64,000 bases of DNA from Planctomycetota bacterium (lineage in GTDB: Bacteria; Planctomycetota; Planctomycetia; Gemmatales; Gemmataceae), in NCBI GenBank assembly GCA_016191165.1, contig JACPPF010000039.1:1-64000 (forward strand). Reading direction: 5' to 3'. Numbering within the stretch: position 1 is the first letter of the stretch; each line of letters opens with the position of its first letter. Made by a program: the position numbers and the translations under genes. Positions 59,791-60,670 of this stretch are shown one piece after another. The notes beneath the pieces were generated by a model. That model worked only from the letters and a program-made list of their open reading frames with translations. It ran no database searches and was not told where the DNA came from.

Positions 59791-60670
59791 ATGGGGACCT
59801 CCCGCTGGATTCTGCGATTGGCTGGCACGTTGCTGCTGGCGGCGGCTGCGCTCAAGGCGTGGGGTCTGGGGCTGGAGCCTGTGGCGCGCCTGGGCGTTCT
59901 TTCGACCGCCGAAGCGCAGCTGACGATCATCGCCTTGGAACTTTTCCTCGGTCTGTGGCTCTGGATCGGCGCGGGGGGGGGCGAATGCGCTCGGCCCCTG
60001 GCTTGCGGCTGTTCTGACGTTCACCGTTTTTGCCTGTGTCACGTTCTACCTGGGCTGGGTCGGCCAATCGTCGTGCGGCTGTTTGGGCCGCTATTCGCCG
60101 AACCCCAGGTACGCGTTCGGCCTGGACGTGTGCGTGCTGGCGGGTTTGGTCATGGGCTGTCCTGACTGGAAATTGCTGCGAAATCACCCGCGCACGCTCC
60201 TGAGCAACACGAAGTTTCCCGCCCTGTGCGGACTGATCGCCGTGGTGTTGTCGGGCGCCATATCCGGCCTGGCCTGGGGCAGTTTTGGTTCGGTCGGGGC
60301 TGCGCTCGCCCATTTTCGCGGCGAACGCCTGTCGATTCATCCCCGGCTTGTCGATGTCGGCGCGGCACCAGCCGGGGACACGCGCGAAGTCCGCATCGAG
60401 TTGACCAACTGGACCGAGCAGCCGATCAACCTGATCGGCGGCACGTCCGATTGTGCCTGCACGGTGCTCGGCGACCTGCCCGTCACGATTCCGGCGGGTG
60501 AGACAGTGACGGTAGCCGTGAACCTTCGCTTCTCCGGAAGGCCCGGAATGTTCACTCGCAAGGCGGCCTTTCTCATCGACGATCAAGGCTTCAGAGCCAT
60601 CAGCTTCAGCATCACGGGTCGAACGCTCAGTGAATCGGAGAACCTCGACGTGGCCGGCGGCGCGCCGTAG
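59791..60670 (+). pseudogene. Cassette gene a, copy 2, frameshifted at a 9-G tract
   Basis: Frame 1 (59752..60165) matches copies 1 and 3 up to LWIGAGG; after the G tract homology resumes in another frame (ANALGPWLAAVLTFTVFACVTFYLGWVGQSSCGCLG, then ORF 60083..60670). Confidence 0.8.

Follow-up and report, generated by a model that had tools for sequence, protein, structure and literature searches.

Homopolymer tracts as putative contingency loci in a MauE-like/DUF1573 membrane protein family of Gemmataceae

Introduction

When a run of nine guanines breaks the frame of a membrane protein gene, is the gene switched off, decaying, or simply misread? The question is raised by the second of three tandem paralogues, copies 1-3, which encode MauE-like/DUF1573 membrane proteins in the window, i.e., the 64-kb stretch (positions 1 to 64,000) of contig JACPPF010000039.1. 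The contig belongs to a draft genome (7.2 Mb, 183 contigs) of the Gemmataceae, Planctomycetota, that is related to metagenome-assembled genomes of the same family. A sequence-only reading had proposed three options for copy 2, namely contingency locus, pseudogene, or sequencing error, and the first is the best supported of them, given the recurrence of the tracts, their two putative modes of action, their variation in length, and the constraint that persists downstream. Copy 2 is probably a slipped-strand (simple-sequence) contingency locus in its OFF phase, and by our own estimate it is very probable that this interpretation holds for the family as a whole. Contigs of this genome are designated C with a number (the window array being C176), and related genomes G with a number.

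The copy 2 tract and its reading frame

Copy 2 starts with an ATG at 59791 and encodes approximately 61 native residues before it reaches a G9 tract at 59973-59981 (approximately codons 61-64 of ~293), where the frame is lost. As read, the open reading frame (ORF; 59791-60165, forward strand, like all window features given below) encodes 124 amino acids, the last part being an out-of-frame tail that ends with a stop at 60163-60165. The remainder of the gene is open in another frame from 59924 to 60670, and the ORF listed there (60083-60670) contains transmembrane segments and the DUF1573 domain. Either 8 or 11 G joins the two parts, as the sequence-only reading had claimed; its account of the tracts in the paralogues also agrees with direct reading. 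Copy 1 (57075-57947) is in frame with an interrupted tract, GGGGCGGG, at 57251-57258 (8 nt, with Cs on both sides), and copy 3 (62405-63283) is in frame with a G11 tract at 62581-62591, at the same codon position as that of copy 2. In a structure model of copy 3, the tract lies at a short hairpin that joins predicted helices 2 and 3 (H38-58 and H62-89), and the copy 2 tract aligns to this site. In the family alignment, the tract adds a few residues locally that most other members lack.

In the mechanism proposed here, the G9 tract of copy 2 would gain or lose Gs at replication. At 9 G, the ribosome would leave the frame after helix 2 and stop at codon 125, yielding a truncated OFF product devoid of the CGC motif and the DUF1573 domain, whereas tracts of 8 or 11 G would allow the full protein of ~290 amino acids to be made. 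The reversibility of such changes and their effect on expression are what we infer from the sequence patterns described below.

Selection downstream of the tract

Downstream of the tract, copy 2 and copy 1 show a ratio of nonsynonymous to synonymous divergence (dN/dS) of 0.21 at a dS of 0.29. With changes polarised by outgroups, the synonymous/nonsynonymous counts are 15/10 on the copy 2 branch and 10/11 on the copy 1 branch, against a neutral ratio of ~1:2.8, and on the basis of these branch counts copy 2 is judged to be still under purifying selection downstream of its tract, without relaxation. The ~690 nt after the tract contain no second stop or frameshift, leaving a single frameshift overall. 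An old pseudogene was rejected on this substitution pattern, which makes old decay unlikely, as the sequence-only reading had argued from coding similarity to copy 1.

A recent pseudogene is a different matter and constitutes the main rival. According to this explanation, a post-duplication indel in the G tract inactivated copy 2, which is now at the onset of decay, and the tract serves as a mutational hotspot and not as a switch. Its role could be filled by copies 1 and 3, and several observations weigh against a switch. In the NPW motif of copy 2 (here NPRYAF), an Arg replaces a Trp that shows no variation among the 18 aligned family members, a radical change that may impair the protein. Broken copies are common in this genome, with lesions that lie outside tracts or in copies that have none, including a 2-nt insertion in the C26 member (34517-35356), a 1-nt shift in the C46 member (55533-56340), and a 5'-truncation in the C136 member (20051). 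Moreover, the tract of copy 1 is interrupted and presumably stable, and many family homologues have no tract at all. It is because of the Trp-to-Arg change and the paralogue lesions away from tracts that recent pseudogenisation retains a modest share of the probability. It nevertheless remains unlikely: constraint is as strong on the branch of copy 2 as on that of copy 1, the downstream region has accumulated no further disruption, and tracts recur at varied sites in the family, promoter-like spacers included.

Recurrence of tracts at family loci

The frequency of runs as such is unremarkable. The window contains nine G8 matches against a shuffle mean of 3.7, a mild excess only, so run frequency was not relied on as evidence against chance, and the tests were based on position instead. 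Just two G/C runs of at least 9 occur in the window, and they fall at the same codon of two paralogues, copies 2 and 3. Counting a run at a family locus if it lay within -150 to +200 of the gene start, 7 of the 38 G/C runs of at least 9 in the genome are located at the family's 13 loci, where 0.024 were expected (P 9e-16). Removal of the C176 array, the source of the question, leaves 5 of 36 (P 1e-11). A/T runs of at least 11 behave similarly, with two of 10 at the 13 family loci (A13 on C155 and T11 on C177; expected 0.006, P 2e-5).

The same association is seen in other genomes. A contig search with copy 3 alone found no relative, and one with a six-sequence family alignment led to nine named relatives. 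In this first search, runs of at least 9 were present in 7 of 35 family start regions versus 2 of 328 control windows of equal size drawn from the same loci (P 1e-6). Because the hypothesis had arisen from the first data, further Gemmataceae members were tested afterwards with the test unchanged, giving 5 of 32 start regions versus 2 of 366 controls (P = 5e-5). All of these P values serve as guides only, since there is overlap among the control windows and the paralogues are related by descent.

Coding and promoter-like tracts

Two ARRANGEMENTS can be distinguished among the family tracts, which lie either in the N-terminal coding region, where they consist of G or C, or in spacers of 14-19 nt flanked by -35-like and -10-like hexamers, where A, C, G, and T tracts all occur. 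For the coding tracts, ON and OFF mean that a plausible ATG is or is not in frame with the gene, and nothing more. In addition to G9 and G11 between helices 2 and 3 in C176 copies 2 and 3, this group includes G11 in the loop between helices 1 and 2 on C115 (out of frame), tracts of G8, G9, and G10 in three G037 paralogues (OFF, ON, and OFF, respectively), and single tracts in G009 (G11, OFF), G004 (C12, ON), G089 (G9, ON), and G063 (C9, OFF). Among the promoter-like spacers, a poly-C tract is common to C60 (TTGCCC-17-TAGAAT), C26 (-19-TAGACT), and C94 (-15-TAGAAT). The others are G12 on C46 (TTGCAA-19-TAATAT), A13 on C155 (TTGAAA-16-TAAGAT), T11 on C177 (TTGACG-18-TATGTT), T11 in G041 (TTGACG-15-TACACT), T14 in G040 (TTGACG-18-TACACT), G11 in G070 (TTGACA-16-TAATGT), and G10 in G089 (TTGACA-14-TAATCT). 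Judged by their positions, the tracts of this family arose at different sites.

The hexamers flanking the tracts upstream of six family genes of this genome and four of its relatives score 8-10 out of 12 as consensus matches, assigned post hoc. A score of at least 8/12 is also reached at eight of the 78 other G/C tract sites, with both strands considered; as unrelated tracts sometimes score equally, the promoters are treated as putative. The best-scoring tract outside the family set (11/12) is a G13 run at C114:1808-1820 (L073), which fills most of an 18-nt spacer (TTGACA-18-TATACT) upstream of another DUF1573 protein. A separate C12 run on the minus strand at C145:21397-21408 (L080) lies in a 20-nt spacer between TTGACT and TAGAGT, ahead of a gene for a predicted secreted protein.

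Within such a scheme, the N-terminal ORF tracts would turn translation on or off, and the spacer tracts would modulate transcription through spacer length, in the manner of meningococcal porA and opc; copy 2 would be part of a wider homopolymer switching system in its own genome. It could instead be argued that G runs act through recoding, whereby RNA polymerase slippage or ribosomal frameshifting would yield a fixed fraction of full-length protein, i.e., control of level and not a heritable switch. Runs of 9-11 G are slippery for polymerases too, and the downstream frame of copy 2 is conserved, both of which suit recoding. However, the tracts vary in length, base, and site, that of copy 1 is not a clean one, and those in promoter spacers would not require recoding, all of which renders this explanation scarcely credible.

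Length variation between near-identical sequences

The sequence-only reading had suggested a comparison of tract lengths in related genomes, and lengths do differ between near-identical sequences, as compared here between paralogues and species and not within a clone. One such pair has the T11 tract of G041 and the T14 tract of G040; the two sequences align over 1104 bases at 98% identity with no gap other than this one, and the spacer is 15 nt in the former and 18 nt in the latter. Among the three G037 paralogues (G8/G9/G10), the G8 and G10 copies are 96% identical downstream (441/460). Within the window, a block of ~115 bp that ends at the tract is 96-100% identical in copies 1-3 (57146-57260, and within 59860-59981 and 62475-62591). 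Beyond it, the identity of copy 3 to copies 1 and 2 drops to 43-60%, and the tract of copy 3 has 2 G more than that of copy 2. Since the identical block is flanked by sequence of lower identity, the likely history is a recent gene conversion, after which the G counts diverged.

These comparisons also bear on the third option, a homopolymer length misjudged in sequencing or assembly, such that the true copy 2 tract would be in frame in most cells. Homopolymer lengths are prone to error, and some of the 183 contigs of this draft end inside repeat copies. Error does not account for the presence of the tracts, which involve all four bases, many independent assemblies, and promoter-like sites as well, and a wrong length is in itself something that a mixed population could produce. 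A length error is judged highly improbable. Loss of mismatch repair was also considered as a cause of the tracts and rejected; MutS-type domains are present in the genome, and the tracts are therefore not explained by their absence.

Relation to known phase-variable systems

Most of what is known about homopolymer phase variation comes from host-associated bacteria, in which it affects surface antigens under immune pressure. Translational phase variation at simple sequence repeats, through poly-G tracts within ORFs, is exemplified by meningococcal hmbR and hpuAB. ORF homopolymer tracts have also been described as simple-sequence contingency loci in Helicobacter canadensis (PMC2823697), and poly-G/C tracts underlie phase-variable genes in Campylobacter (PMC8355987). 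The present genes resemble these systems in having uninterrupted runs of G9-G11 within the N-terminal portion of a gene for a membrane protein, where a change of one G in either direction shifts the frame and truncates the product, and in the occurrence of several such genes per genome. They differ in belonging to a planctomycete lineage from environmental samples, in that their switching is predicted, and in the repeated association of the tracts with the MauE-like/DUF1573 family and with a family of secreted proteins that share an ERLEDR leader.

Promoter-spacer phase variation is represented by porA (van der Ende 1995) and opc (Sarkari 1994) of N. meningitidis and by the fimbriae of H. influenzae (Van Ham 1993), as cited in PMC5084427. 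Paralogues and relatives in the present family likewise place a homopolymer between -35- and -10-like hexamers. Unlike those switches, the tracts here include all four bases within one gene family, the promoters are predicted, and copy 2 itself is not of the promoter-spacer type.

No report of phase variation or homopolymer frameshifts in Planctomycetes or Gemmata was found for the phylum in the open-access literature. The mechanism is a known one. What appears to be new is the lineage, the gene family involved, and the acquisition of tracts on repeated, independent occasions. We lean towards the view that Gemmataceae hold a large repertoire of homopolymer phase variation, undescribed before in Planctomycetota, in which the MauE-like/DUF1573 family, with its Cys-rich partner, has repeatedly and independently gained ORF or promoter switches built from any of the four bases, and in which the ERLEDR-leader secreted family is switched just past the start codon. 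The concentration of such tracts in uncultivated environmental planctomycetes, and in one redox-type membrane family, would point to some other fluctuating selection, such as phage, grazers, or surface interactions. Homopolymer switching in these organisms is testable from existing metagenome reads, and independent tracts at differing positions and of differing bases in homologous genes would provide a natural experiment on the origins of contingency loci.

A second family with an ERLEDR leader

The second tract-bearing family comprises large predicted secreted proteins of the same genome that begin with the leader MFSPxSWIGKxMY-(G7-13)-...ERLEDRVVP or a variant of it. The tract of G7-G13 is situated ~40-50 nt past an ATG with a plausible ribosome-binding site and before the conserved ERLEDR segment, beyond which complete contigs show a long open frame. 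Tract-bearing members were found on C1, C20, C23, C33, C45, C46 (82979), C86, C138, C140, C162, C168, and C183, the loci being L056, L057, L059, L061, L064, L065, L070, L079, L083, L084, L144, and L150. Four are ON by frame (C138, C140, C162, and C168) and eight are OFF, and the family would be set up for switching in the same manner as the coding tracts described above. Planc_extracel (PF07595) was considered as its identity and discarded for want of any match in this genome; the family is therefore described by its leader only.

At two further sites, C21:109877 (L055) and C115:65111 (L054), MauE-like genes are immediately preceded by an ERLEDR-type leader with its G tract, an arrangement that would be expected if the leader were a cassette that moves by recombination.

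The window array and its genes

Copies 1-3 are each the first gene of a tandem unit of ~2.6-2.7 kb, in which the MauE-like/DUF1573 gene is followed by a gene for a small Cys-rich secreted protein (57991-58479, 60716-61210, and 63320-63850 in units 1, 2, and 3, respectively) and by a third gene, seen in the window in units 1 (58627-59679) and 2 (61261-62328). The third-gene product has a C-terminal transmembrane helix and a LolA/RseB-like fold, the latter according to a low-confidence model that for unit 1 is predicted via the unit 2 homologue. A fourth unit follows past the end of the window, and its first gene is 5'-truncated (C176 65590).

Of the names given to the first gene, the earlier label "MauE-like" is the weaker, as the MauE profile (PF07291) scores 22.5 and 23.3 bits, below its gathering cut-off of 27. 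The C-terminal DUF1573 domain (PF07610, cut-off 26.1 bits), with a predicted PapD/HYDIN-like immunoglobulin fold, passes in copies 1 (29.0) and 2 (30.9) and falls short in copy 3 (22.8); NCBIfam yielded no name for the three window proteins. The family shares with MauE a helical membrane part with an SCGCxG motif and with DUF1573 the HYDIN/PapD-like domain. It differs from both in that the two are fused, and from MauE in that no methylamine dehydrogenase genes were noticed adjoining the family gene here. As a guess, the operon may handle thiols and disulfides for the neighbouring Cys-rich protein, with the LolA-like protein as a partner. Finally, the third gene of unit 1 contains a T9 run at 59065-59073 that is presently in frame and may be an additional slippage site.
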